Of a stretch of 64,000 bases of DNA, positions 31,489 through 37,805 are shown in pieces (within the stretch, counting starts at the first letter, position 1; the number at the start of each line of letters is the position of its first letter). The notes beneath the pieces were generated by a model. It did no database searches and was not told the origin of the DNA. It was given only the letters and a program-made list of their open reading frames with translations. This DNA comes from Sphingomonas xinjiangensis (GTDB taxonomy: Bacteria > Pseudomonadota > Alphaproteobacteria > Sphingomonadales > Sphingomonadaceae): NCBI RefSeq assembly GCF_014199255.1, contig NZ_JACIJF010000001.1, forward strand, positions 62,001 through 126,000, written 5' to 3'. The translations under genes were made by a program, and so were the position numbers.

Positions 31489-31861
31489 GTCAGAGGGTTG
31501 GGCGGCCGCGTTGGCACCGCAAGGTGTCACCGAGGAAAGTCCGGGCTCCACGGAACAACGGTGCCGGGTAACGCCCGGCGGGGGCGACCCCAGGGAAAGT
31601 GCCACAGAGAGCAGACCGCCCACTGCCGGAGACGGTAAGGGTAAGGGTGAAAGGGTGCGGCAAAAGCGCACCGCGCGACCGGTAACGGAAGCGGCATGGT
31701 AAACCCCACCGGGAGCAAGACCGAATAGGGACGGCACATGCGCCTCGTTCCGGCGCGTCGTCCGGGTTGGTTGCTGGAGCGGCGGAGCGATCCGTCGCCT
31801 AGAGGAATGGTCGCACAGCCCCTTCGGGGGTGGACAGAACCCGGCTTATAGACCCTCTGGC
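31489..31861 (+). ncRNA. rnpB: RNase P RNA component, class A
   Basis: The 5' arm GTCAGAGGGT (31489-31498) pairs with the 3' arm ACCCTCTGGC (31852-31861) to form P1. The universally conserved GAGGAAAGTCCGGGCTCC begins near 31531, and the matching CAGAACCCGGCTTATAG is near 31835. It processes tRNA 5' ends. Length about 373 bases fits alphaproteobacteria. Confidence 0.95.
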
Positions 31862-31939
31862 TTTTCTTTCTGGAGCTTCCCGTCCGGAAGGAGAGGCGCC
31901 TAGCCTTTCAGGGCTCGCGCTCCTATCTGCCTCAAACCT

Positions 31940-32476: not shown

Positions 32477-32772
32477 AGACGCTTCGCTCGAACTGGTCGG
32501 ATGCCATCCTGGTCTGCGCCAAATGCTCCAAGAAGCTGGACGGCGGGTTCGGGCCCAAGGGCAAGACGCCGCTCGGCAAGGCGTTGCGCAAACATCTGCA
32601 TTTAAAGAAGGGCCGGCGCGCCGAAGCCGGCATCGTCGAGGTGAGGTGCCTGGGCGTGTGCCCGCGTGGGGCGGTTACGGTGGTGAAAGGCGCGCAGAGC
32701 CGCGAATGGCTGCTGGTGCCTGAGGGCGCAGATCTGGACGCGGTGGCGACGGATCTGGGGCTTGGGGCCTAG
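32461..32772 (+). CDS. (2Fe-2S) ferredoxin-like thioredoxin-fold protein
   Basis: 103 residues. Cysteine pairs CAKC near residue 19 and CLGVCPRGAV near the middle fit the thioredoxin-like 2Fe-2S ferredoxin family. The TTG at 32461 is taken as the start because GAGGAG lies eight bases upstream inside the preceding gene; a second TTG at 32473 is possible. Overlap with the J-domain gene suggests coupled expression. Confidence 0.78.
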   Translation: MEAGLKTLRSNWSDAILVCAKCSKKLDGGFGPKGKTPLGKALRKHLHLKKGRRAEAGIVEVRCLGVCPRGAVTVVKGAQSREWLLVPEGADLDAVATDLGLGA

Positions 32773-32777
32773 CGCGG

Positions 32778-32871
32778 CCCCTTCGTCATCCCGGACTCGA
32801 GCCAGAATCCCGCTTTCTCCACCAGCGCCCGCAACCGACACCCCGGCTCAGGGCCCAGGGTGACGAAGGGG
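32778..32871. repeat. Intergenic inverted-repeat element
   Basis: CCCCTTCGTCA (32778-32788) and TGACGAAGGGG (32861-32871) are exact 11-base inverted arms around a less ordered core beginning TCCCGGACTCGAGCC. A similar start, CGTCATCCC, recurs at 33338. This resembles small palindromic dispersed repeats in sphingomonad genomes. Confidence 0.5.
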
Positions 32872-32895
32872 GAGAATGACTCGTCGTCGCCCCAA

Positions 32896-33303
32896 TCAGT
32901 CGGCGTAGCGCGTGGCGGTTTCGCGGATCAGGGCGATCATGTTGGGAATGCCCTGGGTCCGGTTCGAGCTGAGCTGGCTGCGTAGATCGAAGGGGGCGAG
33001 CGCGGCTTCGATGTCGGTCGACAGGATGTCGCCTGGTGCGCGATCCTGCACGGCGAGCAGCACGAGCGCGATGATCCCCTTGGTGATCGCCGCGTTCGAA
33101 TCGGCGAGGAAATGGAGCGCGCCGTCCTCGCGCCGCATCGGGTAAACCCAGACCGATGCCGAACAGCCGCGGACAAGGGTGGCGTCCGTCTTGAGCGGAT
33201 CGGGCATCGGCTCCAGTGCGCGGCCCAGATCGATCAGCAGGCGATAGCGGTCGTCCGCGTCGAGGAATTCATATTCGTCTTGAAGATCGGCGAGGCTGGT
33301 CAT
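32896..33303 (-). CDS. sufE: SufE family sulfur-transfer protein
   Basis: 135 residues from the ATG at 33303. The catalytic cysteine is Cys47 in VRGCSASVWV, followed by the acidic-hydrophobic DSNAAITKGI segment. SufE accepts persulfide from SufS for Fe-S cluster assembly. The suf genes are not adjacent. The conserved SNRTQGI segment near the C-terminus is present. Confidence 0.92.
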   Translation of the reverse strand: MTSLADLQDEYEFLDADDRYRLLIDLGRALEPMPDPLKTDATLVRGCSASVWVYPMRREDGALHFLADSNAAITKGIIALVLLAVQDRAPGDILSTDIEAALAPFDLRSQLSSNRTQGIPNMIALIRETATRYAD

Positions 33304-33413
33304 GCCGGCGCTATAGCGGCCCTCGCTTCGTGCCGTCATCCCCGCCGAGGCGGGATCCGGAAATTACTGGCCGAGCGGCGATACGGCTCCGGACCCTTGC
33401 CAAGCGGGTGCAG

Positions 33414-33662
33414 TCAGAGGTCCACGCCGGCGGCGATCGCCTCGAGCTTGCGGATGCGTTCCTTGAGGTCCGCCATTTCGATGCGAGCGCCAGCGGAGGG
33501 CTGGGCAGGGGCTGCGTCGAGCGGCTGGGCGCCGCGGCCGAGTTCCTGCTGCTTCAGCGTCAGCCAACCGCGCCAGCCCGAAAGCCCGGCGGCGGTGACC
33601 ATGGCCAGGCCGGCGAGGCCCGATACGGCACAGGTGATGTAGAGTTCGGGATCGTGGGGCAC
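33414..33662 (-). CDS. Small membrane protein at the end of the psp operon
   Basis: 82 residues from a GTG at 33662, with GGGAGG six bases upstream. An N-terminal membrane helix (CAVSGLAGLAMVTAAG) is followed by an amphipathic helix ending ADLKERIRKLEAIAAG. It lacks the full shared tail of its neighbours but keeps the RIRKLE part. Probably the last gene of the expanded psp operon. Confidence 0.68.
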   Translation of the reverse strand: MPHDPELYITCAVSGLAGLAMVTAAGLSGWRGWLTLKQQELGRGAQPLDAAPAQPSAGARIEMADLKERIRKLEAIAAGVDL

Positions 33663-33677
33663 GTCATGCCTCCCTAG

Positions 33678-33953
33678 TCAGGCGTTGTTCTTGGTACGCA
33701 GCGCCTCGATCTCGCGGTCGAGCCGGGTGCTGCTGGTCTCGTTGTCGGTGATGACGCGTTCGAGCACCTGCACGCGGTCCTTGAGCGTACGGATCTCGTC
33801 ACGGAGCCGGGCGGTCTCGGCCGCCAGCGCCGGATCGGGGCGGTGGAAAACCTCGTTGCCGTGCCGGTCCTTCGCGATCCCGTGCCGCGCCTTGATCACG
33901 CTGCCGATGGTGACCACGATGATGATCGCGACTACCATTTCGAACGGGTTCAT
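33678..33953 (-). CDS. PspB-like membrane/coiled-coil protein
   Basis: 91 residues from the ATG at 33953. One membrane helix (MVVAIIIVVTIGSVI), a linker ARHGIAKDRHG, and a coiled-coil tail with DRVQVLERVITDN...LDREIEALR. The linker and tail recur in the proteins at 34402 and 34753. Likely sits in the inner membrane with the helix tail in the cytoplasm, like PspB. Function inferred only from location. Confidence 0.8.
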   Translation of the reverse strand: MNPFEMVVAIIIVVTIGSVIKARHGIAKDRHGNEVFHRPDPALAAETARLRDEIRTLKDRVQVLERVITDNETSSTRLDREIEALRTKNNA

Positions 33954-33983
33954 CCCTATACTCCCTGTCTGGTGCAAGCCGCT

Positions 33984-34109
33984 TCATTTGGCCTGTTGCT
34001 GGTCGCGCGCCAAGCGCATTGCGCGGCGAACGGGGCGGTCCCGGGCTTCGGCGAGGGCAACAGCGCCCCCGCACAGTGCGGTGAGCACTGCGAAAACGGC
34101 AATCATCAT
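33984..34109 (-). CDS. 41-residue membrane peptide in the psp operon
   Basis: Translation gives a start MMIAVFAVLTALCGGAVALAE, which is one hydrophobic helix or a signal peptide, then a basic tail (RDRPVRRAMRLARDQQQAK). AAGGA lies nine bases before the ATG at 34109. It fills the gap between two psp-operon genes on the same strand, has a normal start and stop, and is probably real although too short for usual gene callers. Confidence 0.6.
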   Translation of the reverse strand: MMIAVFAVLTALCGGAVALAEARDRPVRRAMRLARDQQQAK

Positions 34110-34121
34110 GGTGGCTTGTCC

Positions 34122-34388
34122 TTAGTTGAGCGGCGCGTCGCGCAGCCGCTCGATTTCATCGGCGACAGCGATGCCGCGGTCGGTGACGATGCGTTCCAGA
34201 ACGCGAACCCGTTGTTCGAGCCGTTCGGTCTGGGCGGCGTATTGCGCGGCCTTTTCGGCGACCATCTGTGATTCGAGTTCCATCTGGCGCTCCTTGAGCT
34301 TGAACCAGGGGCGGACGAACACGCCGCCGAAGATGGCGAGCAGCCCACAGCTGATGCCGAGGATCGGGACGAGGATGGGGCTGATCAT
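34122..34388 (-). CDS. PspB-like membrane/coiled-coil protein
   Basis: 88 residues. A membrane helix (ILVPILGISCGLLAIFGGVFV) leads into a charged helix with KLKERQMELESQ and the shared tail RVRVLERIVTDRGIAVADEIERLR. Closest in layout to PspB, which binds PspC and PspA in enterobacteria. Confidence 0.82.
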   Translation of the reverse strand: MISPILVPILGISCGLLAIFGGVFVRPWFKLKERQMELESQMVAEKAAQYAAQTERLEQRVRVLERIVTDRGIAVADEIERLRDAPLN

Positions 34389-34401
34389 CGAATGCTTCCT
34401 T

Positions 34402-34728
34402 TCAGTTGGTCTTGCGGAGTTGTTCGATCTCGCGGTCGAGGCTCACGGCGCTGTCGGTGACGATGCGTTCGACATTGGCCAGGCGGTCCTTGATCGAGCC
34501 GAGTTCCGCGCGAAGCTGGGCGTTCTCCTGGCTGAGCAGCTTGATCCGCTCCATCGCCTGGTCGTTCTCCTTGGGGTAGATAGCCTGGCCCCAGGCGCCG
34601 TTAAGCGGATAGCCATTCTTGATTCGCAGCCAGGTGGTGAGCACCCAGCCAACAATCCCGAACCCGCCGAGTACGATGCCTCCGGAAATGATCCAGAAGA
34701 GGCGCGGGATTAGGTCATCGTGCAACAT
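34402..34728 (-). CDS. PspB-like membrane/coiled-coil protein
   Basis: 108 residues. Membrane helix FWIISGGIVLGGFGIVGWVL, linker RIKNGYPLNG, then a coiled coil with ENAQLRAELGSIKDRLANVERIVTDSAVSLDREIEQLR. The linker motif (R/K)-x-(K/R)-x-G-Y-P and the VERIVTD...REIE tail are shared with its neighbours. Confidence 0.82.
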   Translation of the reverse strand: MLHDDLIPRLFWIISGGIVLGGFGIVGWVLTTWLRIKNGYPLNGAWGQAIYPKENDQAMERIKLLSQENAQLRAELGSIKDRLANVERIVTDSAVSLDREIEQLRKTN

Positions 34729-34752
34729 GTGGCTTCTTTCGATCTTGAGGCT

Positions 34753-35043
34753 TCAGCGCAGTGCGTCGATTTCGCGGGCGGTCCGCTCGGCGGGATCCGT
34801 GGCGATCCGTTCGAGGACCGCGATCCGCTCTTCGAGGCGGCTGATCTGGCCGGTAAGGCGGCCATTCTCGCTCGAGAGCAGTTCGATCTTCCGCTCGGCA
34901 TCGGGGTCGCCCTTGTGGCTGACCCCGTTCCAATCGCTCTCCACCGGGTAGCCGTGGCGGGCACGGATCCAGTTGTTGAGCACCACGCCAAAGGTCGAGA
35001 TCGCGATGATGGCGATGACGAAGCCTGGTCCACTCCAGCTCAT
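34753..35043 (-). CDS. PspB-like membrane/coiled-coil protein
   Basis: 96 residues. Membrane helix (GFVIAIIAISTFGVVL), linker RARHGYPVESDWNGVSH, and a coiled-coil tail RLEERIAVLERIATDPAERTAREIDALR. Nearest paralog of the 34402 gene. Lies directly after pspC. Confidence 0.82.
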   Translation of the reverse strand: MSWSGPGFVIAIIAISTFGVVLNNWIRARHGYPVESDWNGVSHKGDPDAERKIELLSSENGRLTGQISRLEERIAVLERIATDPAERTAREIDALR

Positions 35044-35080
35044 GATTATTCCTCCCTGTTACGACGCCCCGGCGATTGGC

Positions 35081-35455
35081 TCAGCGCAGGCTGTCGATCT
35101 CGTCCGCCAGGCGCGTGTTGCGGCTGGTGTAGAACATTTCGATGTCGGCCAGACGGCGATCGATGTCGCGGAACTTGGAGCGGACCTCGGCGGTGGAGCG
35201 GCTCGGGTTCGAGCGCACGCCCTGCCAGAACTTCGCTTCTTCGGGCCCCTGATAGAGTCCGGCCGGCTTGTTCGGCGCCATCCAGGCAATCAGCACATAG
35301 GCGACGATGTTCATCGGGAAGATCGCGAAGCTGAGCATCACGAAGCCGACGCGGAGCCAGATGGCATCGATGCCGGTATATTCCGCCAGGCCCGAACACA
35401 CGCCCAGCCATTTGCTGTTCTGCTTGTCGAGATAGAATTTGGTACGAGCGGACAT
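35081..35455 (-). CDS. pspC: Phage shock protein C
   Basis: 124 residues. The PspC domain (KWLGVCSGLAEYTGIDAIWLRVGFVML) includes one membrane segment with a second (NIVAYVLIAWMAP), and a cytoplasmic tail RDIDRRLADIEMFYTSRNTRLADEIDSLR. This tail resembles the tails of the small paralogs downstream. PspC senses envelope stress together with PspB and controls PspA. Two bases after the pspB stop. Confidence 0.9.
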   Translation of the reverse strand: MSARTKFYLDKQNSKWLGVCSGLAEYTGIDAIWLRVGFVMLSFAIFPMNIVAYVLIAWMAPNKPAGLYQGPEEAKFWQGVRSNPSRSTAEVRSKFRDIDRRLADIEMFYTSRNTRLADEIDSLR

Positions 35456-35457
35456 TT

Positions 35458-35727
35458 TCAGTTCCTCCTCGAGATGTCGTAGGGGCTCGCATCGCGTTGG
35501 GCGGAGAGCGGCCGGAAGTCGGGATTGTCGGCGGCGATGATGCGTTCGACGGTGAGCAGGCGCTCCTCAAGCTGCTTGGCGGTGTAGAAGAGCTCGTCGA
35601 GCAGCTTCTCGTCCTCGCCGGTGATCGTGGCCGACTGCTTCCACTTGGTGATGTAGTGCATGATCACCCAGGGGAGCCCGATGAAGAGCATCCCCACGAT
35701 GACGATGGGCAGGAAGACGTCTTCCAT
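35458..35727 (-). CDS. pspB: Phage shock protein B
   Basis: 89 residues: one membrane helix (LPIVIVGMLFIGLPWVIM) and a coiled coil with DEKLLDELFYTAKQLEERLLTVERIIAADNPDF. The gene starts three bases after pspA ends. PspB and PspC form the membrane part of the stress sensor that recruits PspA. Confidence 0.9.
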   Translation of the reverse strand: MEDVFLPIVIVGMLFIGLPWVIMHYITKWKQSATITGEDEKLLDELFYTAKQLEERLLTVERIIAADNPDFRPLSAQRDASPYDISRRN

Positions 35728-35730
35728 GGA

Positions 35731-36399
35731 TCAGGCTCCCCGGTTCATCCGCGCCTTGAGCGCTTCGAGTTCGGCGTCGACCTTTTCCGACGAACGCAGC
35801 TCGGCAATCTCTTCGTCCAGCGTCTTGGGCTGGCCGCCCAGGCCCGCGGCATCGGCGCGGCCTTCGGCCATGTCGACCCGGCGTTCGAGCACGTCGAAGC
35901 GGGAGAAAGCATCCTGCATCTTTGCGCCGTTGGTCATCTCGCGCAGGCGGAAGCGGTTGTTGGCGCTTTCCAGTCGCGCGGTGATCGAATTCTGACGGGT
36001 GCGGGCCTCGCGCAGCTTGTTCTGCAGCTTGTTGATGTCCTCTTCGGCGGCCTTGAGCGCGTCGTCGAGCACCGCGATCTCCGCGCTCAGCTGGCCGCAC
36101 ATGTCGCCTGCCTTCTGCTTTTCGACCAAGGCGGCCTTGGCGAGGTCCTCACGGCCCTTGCTCAGTGCCAGCTCGGCCTTCTCGGTCCAGCTTTCCTGAA
36201 GCTTTTCCAGCTTGGCGATATGGCGGCGCATTTCCTTCTGGTCGGCGATGGTGCGTGCGGCGGAGGCGCGAACCTCGACCAGCGTTTCCTCCATTTCGAG
36301 GATGATCATGCGGATCATCTTGGCCGGGTCTTCAGCCTTGTCGAGCAGGTCGGTGACGTTGGCGGCGATGATGTCGCGGGTTCGCGAAAAGATACCCAT
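35731..36399 (-). CDS. pspA: Phage shock protein A
   Basis: 222 residues, almost entirely coiled coil, starting MGIFSRTRDIIAANVTDLLDKAEDP. It belongs to the PspA/IM30 ESCRT-III superfamily, which coats damaged membrane and, in enterobacteria, inhibits PspF. The ATG at 36399 is seven bases from AGGAG; an in-frame ATG two codons earlier is too close to it. It follows a hairpin-rich leader. Confidence 0.94.
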   Translation of the reverse strand: MGIFSRTRDIIAANVTDLLDKAEDPAKMIRMIILEMEETLVEVRASAARTIADQKEMRRHIAKLEKLQESWTEKAELALSKGREDLAKAALVEKQKAGDMCGQLSAEIAVLDDALKAAEEDINKLQNKLREARTRQNSITARLESANNRFRLREMTNGAKMQDAFSRFDVLERRVDMAEGRADAAGLGGQPKTLDEEIAELRSSEKVDAELEALKARMNRGA

Positions 36400-36422
36400 G
36401 TACATACTCCTTGTTTTGGTAA

Positions 36423-36483
36423 CCGCCGGAAGGGTTTGAGAACCCTCCCGGCGGGGTCCGCTCGCCGGGGCATTGGCGAGCGG
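36423..36483 (-). promoter_or_regulatory. Two strong hairpins before pspA
   Basis: In the psp message, between the 35-residue gene and pspA, there are two stems: CCGCTCGCC/GGCGAGCGG (36458-36483) and a longer CCGCCGG-AGGGTT/AACCCT-CCGGCGG (36423-36454) with one mismatch. Neither is followed by a T run on the minus strand, so they may protect pspA mRNA or act as a partial attenuator. Confidence 0.5.
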
Positions 36484-36496
36484 ATTACGGTCGTCC

Positions 36497-36604
36497 TTAG
36501 GCGATCGCCGGGCCGACCGCGCCGGCCATCAGTACGACGCTGGCGAGAAGGGCGATGGTGGCGGCGGCGAAGGCGCTGCGGACGGTGGTGGCTTGGTAGG
36601 TCAT
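36497..36604 (-). CDS. 35-residue peptide, first gene of the psp operon
   Basis: Translation starts MTYQATTVRSAFAAATIALLA and ends VGPAIA, a hydrophobic helix that could be a signal peptide or a membrane peptide. GGGAA lies about eight bases before the ATG at 36604. It sits about 50 bases downstream of the sigma-54 promoter and before pspA, so it would be the first product made on stress. Supported by start site, ribosome site and position only. Confidence 0.6.
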   Translation of the reverse strand: MTYQATTVRSAFAAATIALLASVVLMAGAVGPAIA

Positions 36605-36662
36605 TGTCTCGTTCCCTGAACCTAGTGTTCATTCGCCCGTTTGCCGGGCTTGCCACTTCATC

Positions 36663-36678
36663 AGCAGGAAGCGTGCCA
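36663..36678 (-). promoter_or_regulatory. Sigma-54 (RpoN) promoter of the psp operon
   Basis: Read on the minus strand the sequence is TGGCACG-CTTC-CTGCT, matching the -24/-12 consensus TGGCACG-N4-TTGCW at all but one position, with exact spacing. Transcription would start about 12 bases downstream, near 36651, and run through the 35-residue gene and pspA. It requires an activator, PspF, encoded on the opposite side. Confidence 0.8.
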
Positions 36679-36709
36679 GTTCCGCAAAGTCGCGGAAAAT
36701 CGGAGGGTT

Positions 36710-36725
36710 AGGCGGCTATCCGCCT
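36710..36725. promoter_or_regulatory. Candidate PspF enhancer palindrome
   Basis: AGGCGG-CTAT-CCGCCT, perfect 6-bp arms, about 35 bases upstream of the -24 element and 55 bases before the pspF ATG. Placement fits an upstream activator site for PspF that could also self-regulate pspF. Inferred from position and symmetry. Confidence 0.5.
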
Positions 36726-36779
36726 GAAGATGCAAATTAGCGGTTGCGAAGAATTGGGAAATTGTCCCAAGATTTCGTC

Positions 36780-37805
36780 ATGGAGCGGGCAACGCAGGTG
36801 ATTGGTCAGTCGGGAGCCTTTCTCGACGCACTGGAATTGGCCAGCCGGGCGGCGGCACTTGATCGCCCGGTGCTCGTCATCGGCGAGCGCGGGACCGGCA
36901 AGGAGTTGGTGGCCGAGCGGCTGCACCGACTAAGTCCGCGCTGGGACGGGCCGCTGGTGGTGATGAACTGCGCCGCGTTGCCGGAAACGCTGATCGAAGC
37001 CGAGCTGTTCGGCCATGAGTCCGGCGCCTTTACCGGTGCGACCAAATCGCGAGCCGGCCGTTTCGAAGAAGCCGATGGCGGCACCTTGTTCCTCGACGAA
37101 CTGGGCACGCTGTCGATGGCGGCGCAGGACCGGTTGCTGCGCGCAGTGGAATATGGCGAGATCACCCGCATTGGCGCCTCCAGGCCGATCCGCGTCGACG
37201 TACGCATCGTCGCGGCAACCAACGAGCATCTGCCCGAGCGTGTCGAGAAGGGGACGTTCCGCGCCGACCTTCTCGACCGGCTGTGCTTTGAAGTGGTGAC
37301 GCTGCCGCCGTTGCGCGCGCGGCGCGGCGACATCGAAGTGCTTGCCGACTTTTTCGGACGGCGGATGGCGGCGGAAATCGGTATGGACGCATGGCCGGGC
37401 TGGGGACCGAACGCGCTCGACATGCTGCTGCATCACGACTGGCCGGGCAATGTCCGCGAGTTGCGCAACGTCGCCGAGCGGGCGGTGTATCGCTGGGGGC
37501 GCGAAGGGCCCGTGGATGCGATCCAGATCGATCCGTTCGCGTCCCCCTATCGGCCAAGGACGGTGTCGCCGGCCACTGAGGCGCCGGCGGACACTATCTT
37601 GTCGACGCGGAAAAGCGAGGCGGAGCCCGTCGCCACGGCGGGCGACTTCAAGTCGCGAGTTGCTGGGTTCGAGCGGCAGCTGCTTACCCGCGCGCTTGCC
37701 GAGCATCGCTTCAACCAGCGCAACACCGCCGAGGCGCTGGGGCTGAGCTATGACCAGTTGCGCCACGCTTTGAAGCGGCATGGGCTGCTGGGGGCGAGTG
37801 GTTGA
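36780..37805 (+). CDS. pspF: PspF-like sigma-54-dependent activator
   Basis: 341 residues from the ATG at 36780. AAA+ domain with Walker A GERGTGKE at 35-42, the sigma-54-binding loop GAFTGA at 82-87 and a Walker B GGTLFLDE. A Fis-type helix-turn-helix is at the C-terminus (NTAEALGLSYDQLRHALKRH). There is no N-terminal sensory domain, which is the diagnostic trait of PspF. Divergent from the psp operon it would activate. Confidence 0.9.
   Translation: MERATQVIGQSGAFLDALELASRAAALDRPVLVIGERGTGKELVAERLHRLSPRWDGPLVVMNCAALPETLIEAELFGHESGAFTGATKSRAGRFEEADGGTLFLDELGTLSMAAQDRLLRAVEYGEITRIGASRPIRVDVRIVAATNEHLPERVEKGTFRADLLDRLCFEVVTLPPLRARRGDIEVLADFFGRRMAAEIGMDAWPGWGPNALDMLLHHDWPGNVRELRNVAERAVYRWGREGPVDAIQIDPFASPYRPRTVSPATEAPADTILSTRKSEAEPVATAGDFKSRVAGFERQLLTRALAEHRFNQRNTAEALGLSYDQLRHALKRHGLLGASG

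Follow-up and report, generated by a model that had tools for sequence, protein, structure and literature searches.

Genes behind pspABC in Sphingomonas xinjiangensis

The psp operon of Sphingomonas xinjiangensis lies in a stretch of 64,000 nucleotides (the window; contig NZ_JACIJF010000001.1, positions 62,001 to 126,000) of a 4.47-Mb genome in 64 contigs, which was searched whole in six frames. The genes pspA, pspB and pspC follow one another in this order, each above the curated family cut-offs of Pfam and NCBIfam. An earlier reading of the letters alone (the original prediction) had placed five or six further genes behind them on the same strand; six were found, here called T1 to T6. Four of them, T1, T2, T3 and T5, share a C-terminal tail that recurs at the end of PspC and, judged by sequence, are homologous to one another. 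The features are listed below with their coordinates in the window. The T profile and the classes are described in the following sections; dN/dS is the ratio of nonsynonymous to synonymous substitution rates, window versus five relatives; "family" means Sphingomonadaceae.

36744-37805, + strand: pspF, divergent gene for the sigma-54 activator (TIGR02974, E 3.7e-140, above cut-off)
36664-36678, - strand: sigma-54 (-24/-12) type promoter site TGGCACGCTTCCTGC, score 13.8 of 15
36497-36604, - strand: open reading frame (ORF) of 35 residues with a single helix, between promoter site and pspA; homologs in four near relatives, dN/dS 0.29-0.50
35731-36399, - strand: pspA (TIGR02977, E 1.1e-83; PF04012, E 1.2e-40)
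35458-35727, - strand: pspB (PF06667, E 7.3e-25; TIGR02976, E 8.1e-21)
35081-35455, - strand: pspC (TIGR02978, E 1.3e-31; PF04024, E 3.2e-16), its C-terminal tail resembling the T tails
34753-35043, - strand: T1, membrane helix, RARHGYP linker, helical tail; T profile E 8.1e-32; class of 53 members in 51 loci
34402-34728, - strand: T2, membrane helix, GYPLxGxWGQAIYP-type linker, helical tail; clade support 100
34122-34388, - strand: T3, membrane helix, EKAAQYAAQTERLEQRVRVLERIVTDRG tail; class of 75 members in 68 loci; clade with two others, support 99
33984-34109, - strand: T4, membrane peptide of 41 residues; in 6 of 101 loci; dN/dS 0.38-0.79
33678-33953, - strand: T5, MNPFEMVV membrane helix, KARHGIA linker, helical tail; class of 92 members in 85 loci
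33414-33662, - strand: T6, terminal gene, membrane helix and short DLKERIRKLEAIAAGVDL tail; in 84 of 91 family loci

The coordinates of T5 are those of its ATG start. Its ORF from TTG begins at 33977, and the intergenic gaps across the T array are 6 to 37 bases, the gap of 6 counting T5 from TTG. The description of every added gene as a membrane helix plus a coiled coil fitted T1, T2, T3 and T5; T4, the 41-residue membrane peptide already noted inside the block, has the helix and lacks the coiled coil, and the tail of T6 is a short, weaker form of the T tail. T4 was present only in the window and in five loci of the same genus among the 101 loci compared, and its dN/dS marks weaker constraint. 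The ratios were 0.11-0.54 for T1, T2, T3, T5 and T6, 0.16-0.61 for PspB and PspC and 0.13-0.20 for PspA; the T genes are under purifying selection.

The shared tail

The tail common to T1, T2, T3 and T5 reads L-x-x-R-x-x-V-L-E-R-I-x-T-D...L-x-x-E-I-x-x-L-R. In 57 aligned members, the four from the window included, its T, I and L columns were invariant and its R, E, D and R columns at least 90% conserved. The profile of these 57, run against the whole genome with matches listed up to E 10, returned eight: the four T genes (8e-32 to 2e-22), PspC (9.9e-5), two places elsewhere (0.18 and 0.41) and PspB (2.5). Below E 0.01 the genome yielded only the four T genes and the PspC tail; T1 was the top match but is itself one row of the profile. 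Shuffling pointed the same way. A profile of one class was scored against the window proteins of the other classes and against 1000 shuffles of each that kept heptad phase after residue 40; the real score exceeded all 1000 shuffles in 12 of 12 T-T comparisons and in 4 of 4 T-PspC comparisons, and 0-1 of 1000 reached it for T6. Profile-profile probabilities were 98.7-99.9% among the T classes, 95.7% for T versus T6 and 94% over 37 columns for T versus the PspC tail, compared with 2% for T versus PspA as a control. Thus, the motif that the original prediction had seen in four genes and again in PspC is borne out, and for T1, T2, T3 and T5 the tail can be aligned beyond what a generic coiled coil would give.

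Own-genome specificity, profile-profile comparison and heptad shuffles together rule out a generic coiled coil behind the likeness of T1, T2, T3, T5 and the PspC tail; for the likeness to PspB and T6 it is a possible source. Convergent coiled-coil composition as the whole explanation can draw on the sub-threshold Pfam matches of the T proteins, among them generic coiled coils like bZIP and ZapB, and on unrelated helical proteins among the solved-structure matches, but with no shuffle reaching the real score in any T-T or T-PspC comparison, a profile this specific in its own genome and columns this conserved, it is highly improbable. As for a solved structure of the family itself, the matches at E up to 1 (best 60 of 125) were unrelated helical proteins (prefoldin, haemagglutinin), with a best E of 0.007.

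An excess of lysine and arginine on the C-side of the membrane helix, found in 292 of 297 T proteins, 82 of 84 T6 and 100 of 100 PspB, predicts an outside N-terminus and tails that lie in the cytoplasm. An AlphaFold2 model of T2 has a membrane helix at residues 2-38, a loop and one long helix at 55-107 (mean predicted local distance difference test score, pLDDT, 78; predicted template modelling score, pTM, 0.34).

By sequence, the T tail clearly resembles the PspC C-terminal tail and weakly resembles PspB, the latter over the first half of the signature (profile-profile 94% over 22 columns). The end of PspC (TIGR02978, about positions 72-121), closing on L-A-D-E-I-D-S-L-R, aligns with T1, T2, T3 and T5 to the last residues. 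Unlike PspC, the T proteins have a single membrane helix, and the PspC domain PF04024 is absent from T1 to T6. With PspB (PF06667, TIGR02976) they share small size, one N-terminal membrane helix with positive residues just inside, a predicted N-out/C-in layout with a helical cytoplasmic domain, the motif R-L-x-x-x-E-R-I and a place in the same operon; they differ in the PspC-like end T-D...E-I-x-x-L-R, in class-specific linkers, in number per operon and in scores below cut-off. The best PspB-model scores were 16.9 bits for T3 on PF06667 (cut-off 25.6) and 15.8 for T5 on TIGR02976 (cut-off 51.7). "PspB-like" was therefore an apt label for proteins that are not of the PspB family by curated score. 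T1 to T6 matched no other curated Psp model of Pfam or NCBIfam at E up to 1, PspD and PspG included.

Classes, order and distribution of the T genes

Recent tandem duplication is ruled out, since for 295 of 297 T members the best match lies in another genome and is not the neighbouring paralog. Reciprocal best hits gave five groups of 92, 75, 66, 53 and 11 members, and the T genes fall into roughly four old classes. A tree built from 74 proteins and 101 columns, with 37 of 71 inner branches unresolved, had T2 as one clade and T3 grouped with two others (supports as listed above); 12 of 15 T5 proteins grouped at 95, and T1 plus T2 had support 95, with T2 nested in T1. Class labels changed 10 times on this tree versus 47 when shuffled. 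The proposed repeated duplication of a PspB/PspC tail survives as far as the paralogs are homologous and share a tail with PspC and weakly with PspB, but not as a fresh event, and the old classes and the linker peculiar to T2 speak against the notion that the coiled coils are "interchangeable." In T2 the linker G-Y-P-L...W-G was invariant in 10 sequences found by whole-protein likeness and likewise in a further set of 41; only the count of 10 is independent, because 40 of the 41 were obtained with the linker motif as one of two baits. The linker R-x-R-H-G-Y-P, attributed to three proteins, occurs exactly in T1 (RARHGYP), whereas T2 has RIKNGYP and T5 has KARHGIA.

Gene content was compared in 101 loci: the window and 100 further stretches, namely, 90 family psp loci, mostly one per genus, among the matches listed, and 10 loci from other families of the order. 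The 91 family loci include two from one genome and three located via T2 matches, a slight bias toward T presence. In 88 of the 91, one to six T genes stood behind pspC (T4 and T6 excluded: none in 3, one in 7, two in 7, three in 36, four in 25, five in 8 and six in 5), and T6, present in 84, was the last gene in every one of them, so the block recurs in other Sphingomonadaceae. The median gap in the array was 21 bases. T5 was mostly the last T gene ahead of T6. The commonest order, T1-T2-T3-T5, was found in 13 of 91 loci; T1, T2 or T3 was often missing, and elsewhere T3 preceded T1 or T2. At E 0.001, a profile of 300 T members matched 454 of the 5596 same-strand ORFs in the 101 loci, and every one was a psp-locus gene recognised beforehand; 63 PspC, 63 T6 and 28 PspB are among them. 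Two psp loci, L124 and L125, lie in genome G113; the second shows no pspB, no T gene and no adjacent pspF, yet T6 is kept.

Among 199 family genomes, 186 had a PspA match and 158 a T gene found with a T2 query (T2 or a near paralog). The T2 query matched 157 of the 186 genomes with PspA versus 1 of the 13 without, and that one is 66% complete (Fisher p 1.5e-8, without correction for kinship). Of at least 548 named records reached with the same query, 80 were examined, from genera that include Sphingomonas, Sphingobium, Novosphingobium, Stakelama, Hephaestia, Chakrabartia and Sphingosinicella. PspABC and two or more T genes were present in all 80, and T6 in 78; the other two are probably L265 and L299, whose contigs end just behind T2. 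Because T2 was the selection criterion, only gene order is informative in these records, and the order A-B-C-T1-T2-T3-T5-T6 was found in 40 of the 80. In one annotated record, from Sphingomonas parapaucimobilis, the genes at the array position are annotated as hypothetical proteins and the gene behind the array as a SufE family protein.

A mobile origin was rejected: the T2 query matched none of 50,697 phage records at E 0.01 and found one plasmid-collection record, an 880-kb Sphingomonas parapaucimobilis replicon. This YK209 "plasmid" (L301, NZ_CP155749.1) has ftsY and superoxide dismutase near its psp locus; it may be a second chromosome, or an effect of the assembly. A record titled Bacillus sp. 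2B10 (L276, RPSH01000019.1) holds a T2 relative at 78% identity and is probably a mislabelled or contaminated assembly.

Outside the family, 9 of the 10 loci had no T gene and one, in the family labelled f8, had a single one. At the level of the order, a profile (A2) matched 269 of 296 genomes, with one match per matching genome outside the family and sometimes two; four f4 genomes had neither a PspA nor a T match. In 23 genomes outside the family, picked for close examination because they match, most matches in families f2 and f5-f8 were T-like proteins, about 70-115 residues long, each with a single membrane helix; the match in G038 was PspC itself. For such proteins the best sub-threshold NCBIfam match was PspB or PspC in 7 of 7, and Pfam gave a weak PspB match in 6 of 7, the top match in one. 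A T-like gene lay within the psp operon in three f8 loci (L200, L217, L218), and the others of the sister families had no PspA, PspB or PspC within the 3 kb examined. In L200, in L218 and in L166 (the psp locus of the f8 genome G049), a second short PspC-domain ORF in the psp operon precedes a single T-like gene, an arrangement that may represent the array at an early stage.

Orphan T-like genes outside psp (L197-L199, L201-L215, L219 and L172) are frequent in sister families, often one per genome, and a genome of another order has them too; the 74-protein tree left their position unsettled. Of 10 neighbours tested, two are sigma-70 factor genes (L198, L219), one each an EAL, GAF, acetyltransferase, TetR or TonB receptor gene, and three had no match. 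A sigma-54 site scoring at least 13 was found upstream of 0 of 20 orphans versus 2 of 60 control stretches, which rules them out as a second sigma-54 target like pspG. At the class level, 22 of 385 genomes matched, 5 of them from the family. G438, from another order, has two T-like genes, adjoining what by eye appear to be dut and coaBC; the other 16 class-level matches had E values of 2.7e-9 to 8.7e-4, many in long frames.

Candidate partners of the psp switch

In 90 of 91 family loci, pspF lay next to the operon in divergent orientation. A sigma-54-type site (score of at least 13) stood no more than 500 bases upstream of pspA in 79 of the 91, versus 12 of 91 for an internal 3 kb. From 32700 to 36900, no sigma-70-like site was found, and a simple scan gave no terminator-like site on the coding strand and two on the other strand. 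The block appears to be the distal part of a sphingomonad psp operon controlled by PspF and sigma-54; we infer co-transcription of the T genes with pspABC, as well as the partners of the T proteins and their effect on the switch. The ORF at 36497-36604, between promoter site and pspA, is membrane or signal-like and gave only one match in its own genome; ORFs of like make-up hold the same position in several loci (for example, L071, L072, L114, L115, L117, L144 and L156). On the far side, the next same-strand ORF after T6 is at 32896-33339, and a class A RNase P RNA lies at 31490-31864 (+), about 1.5 kb from the array end.

The T proteins are best read as extra partners of the switch, since their tail combines the PspB motif with the PspC end and their genes share the sigma-54-type site of the operon. 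We give a probability of roughly 0.55 to a reading, drawn from sequence features, in which they are PspF-induced, N-out/C-in partners of the PspB-PspC-PspA switch. Via their tails they would join the PspB/PspC membrane complex; they might compete for or hold the PspC tail and could give PspA further membrane docking sites. Since their genes lie downstream of pspA, induction would raise their level and let them feed back on the switch. That cytoplasmic PspB-PspC contacts silence the response is stated in the title of a paper cited by PMC5596341. A leucine zipper motif of E. coli PspC is needed for PspA contact and induction (PMC3068692, in the part available); the same source places this region in the periplasm and proposes a second topology.

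Several results weigh against such a role. Similarity of PspB to T is weak, with 3-9 of 1000 shuffles reaching the real score and only E 2.5 in the own-genome search, and profile-profile comparison gave just 1.5% for PspB directly versus the PspC tail; the PspC tail also matched PspA, at 36%. The T proteins fall under every curated PspB and PspC cut-off, and the predicted PspC model was too poor to use (pLDDT 57). The sister-family orphans, away from psp and lacking a sigma-54 site, indicate that the T family can work without psp linkage. T6 gave no profile-profile match to PspB (1.2%) or to the PspC tail (0.1%); because neither T6 and PspB nor PspB and the PspC tail match directly, it is T that forms the bridge between PspB and the PspC tail.

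The orphans would also fit a separate origin of the T proteins, as a small-membrane-protein family of their own whose genes came to lie behind psp, with the tail as old homology and contact with PspA, PspB and PspC lost; the orphans adjoin unrelated genes and lack the sigma-54 site. Linkage to psp is nevertheless kept across the family, T presence is tied to PspA (157 of 186 genomes versus 1 of 13, kinship uncorrected), and three f8 loci too have a T-like gene inside the psp operon, all of which makes this origin distinctly unlikely. A stronger competitor, still only a tentative one, has the T proteins as effectors and not regulators, either anchors that spread PspA polymers on damaged membrane or membrane stabilisers, with no role in the PspC switch. 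Their position downstream of pspA behind the same promoter-type site suits it, as does the variation from 0 to 6 T genes per locus, which a dosage-type effector tolerates. However, a tail shared with the PspC region that the available literature ties to PspA contact suggests specific contacts, as do the class-specific linkers, and T-like orphans exist outside psp. Partnership in the PspB-PspC-PspA switch could also take a combinatorial form, in which at least four old coiled-coil classes with their own linkers would assemble in varying sets with PspC and PspA, each class answering to its own membrane disturbance or threshold and T6 capping the assembly; we consider this elaboration unlikely.

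The array had been thought undescribed. Ravi et al. 2024 (PMC11237479) do name "PspB duplicates" in psp operons, in one clause, and report PspC fused to a divergent C-terminal PspB, with AOL22920.1 as an example. Both ideas, extra PspB-like operon genes and a PspC that ends in a PspB-like element, resemble what is found here; the classes, their order, the terminal T6, the tail motif, the distribution and the orphan genes go beyond the accessible text of that paper, in which such details are absent. The accessible text of Popp et al. 2022 (PMC9239133) likewise contained no such array, and a literature search on psp in Sphingomonas and Novosphingobium found no paper, the Sphingomonadaceae phage-shock matches bearing titles on other subjects. 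PspD and PspG of enterobacteria are, like the T proteins, accessory Psp proteins, PspG being described in partly available sources as a membrane protein that PspF controls. Ethanol stress and xylose medium both raise pspA, pspB and pspC in Zymomonas mobilis, according to the available parts of PMC3495753 and PMC8645129. There ZMO1065 is pspC and ZMO1067 is SufE, and these gene numbers leave one annotated gene at the position expected for the array. ZMO1062, whose number directly precedes that of pspA, bears the name "pspD" in the portion available and changes with pspA.

What is known of the psp switch comes largely from enterobacteria, which have one PspB and one PspC. In Sphingomonadaceae, a large family, most genomes (a match in 158 of 199) encode additional proteins whose tails are of this kind, and these proteins define a family without its own Pfam or NCBIfam model, recognised by a membrane helix and an L-E-R-I-x-T-D...E-I-x-x-L-R tail. 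The sphingomonad stress switch may thus have several partners where other bacteria have one. If the T proteins act in the switch, they would be natural variants for testing how PspC chooses between PspB and PspA.

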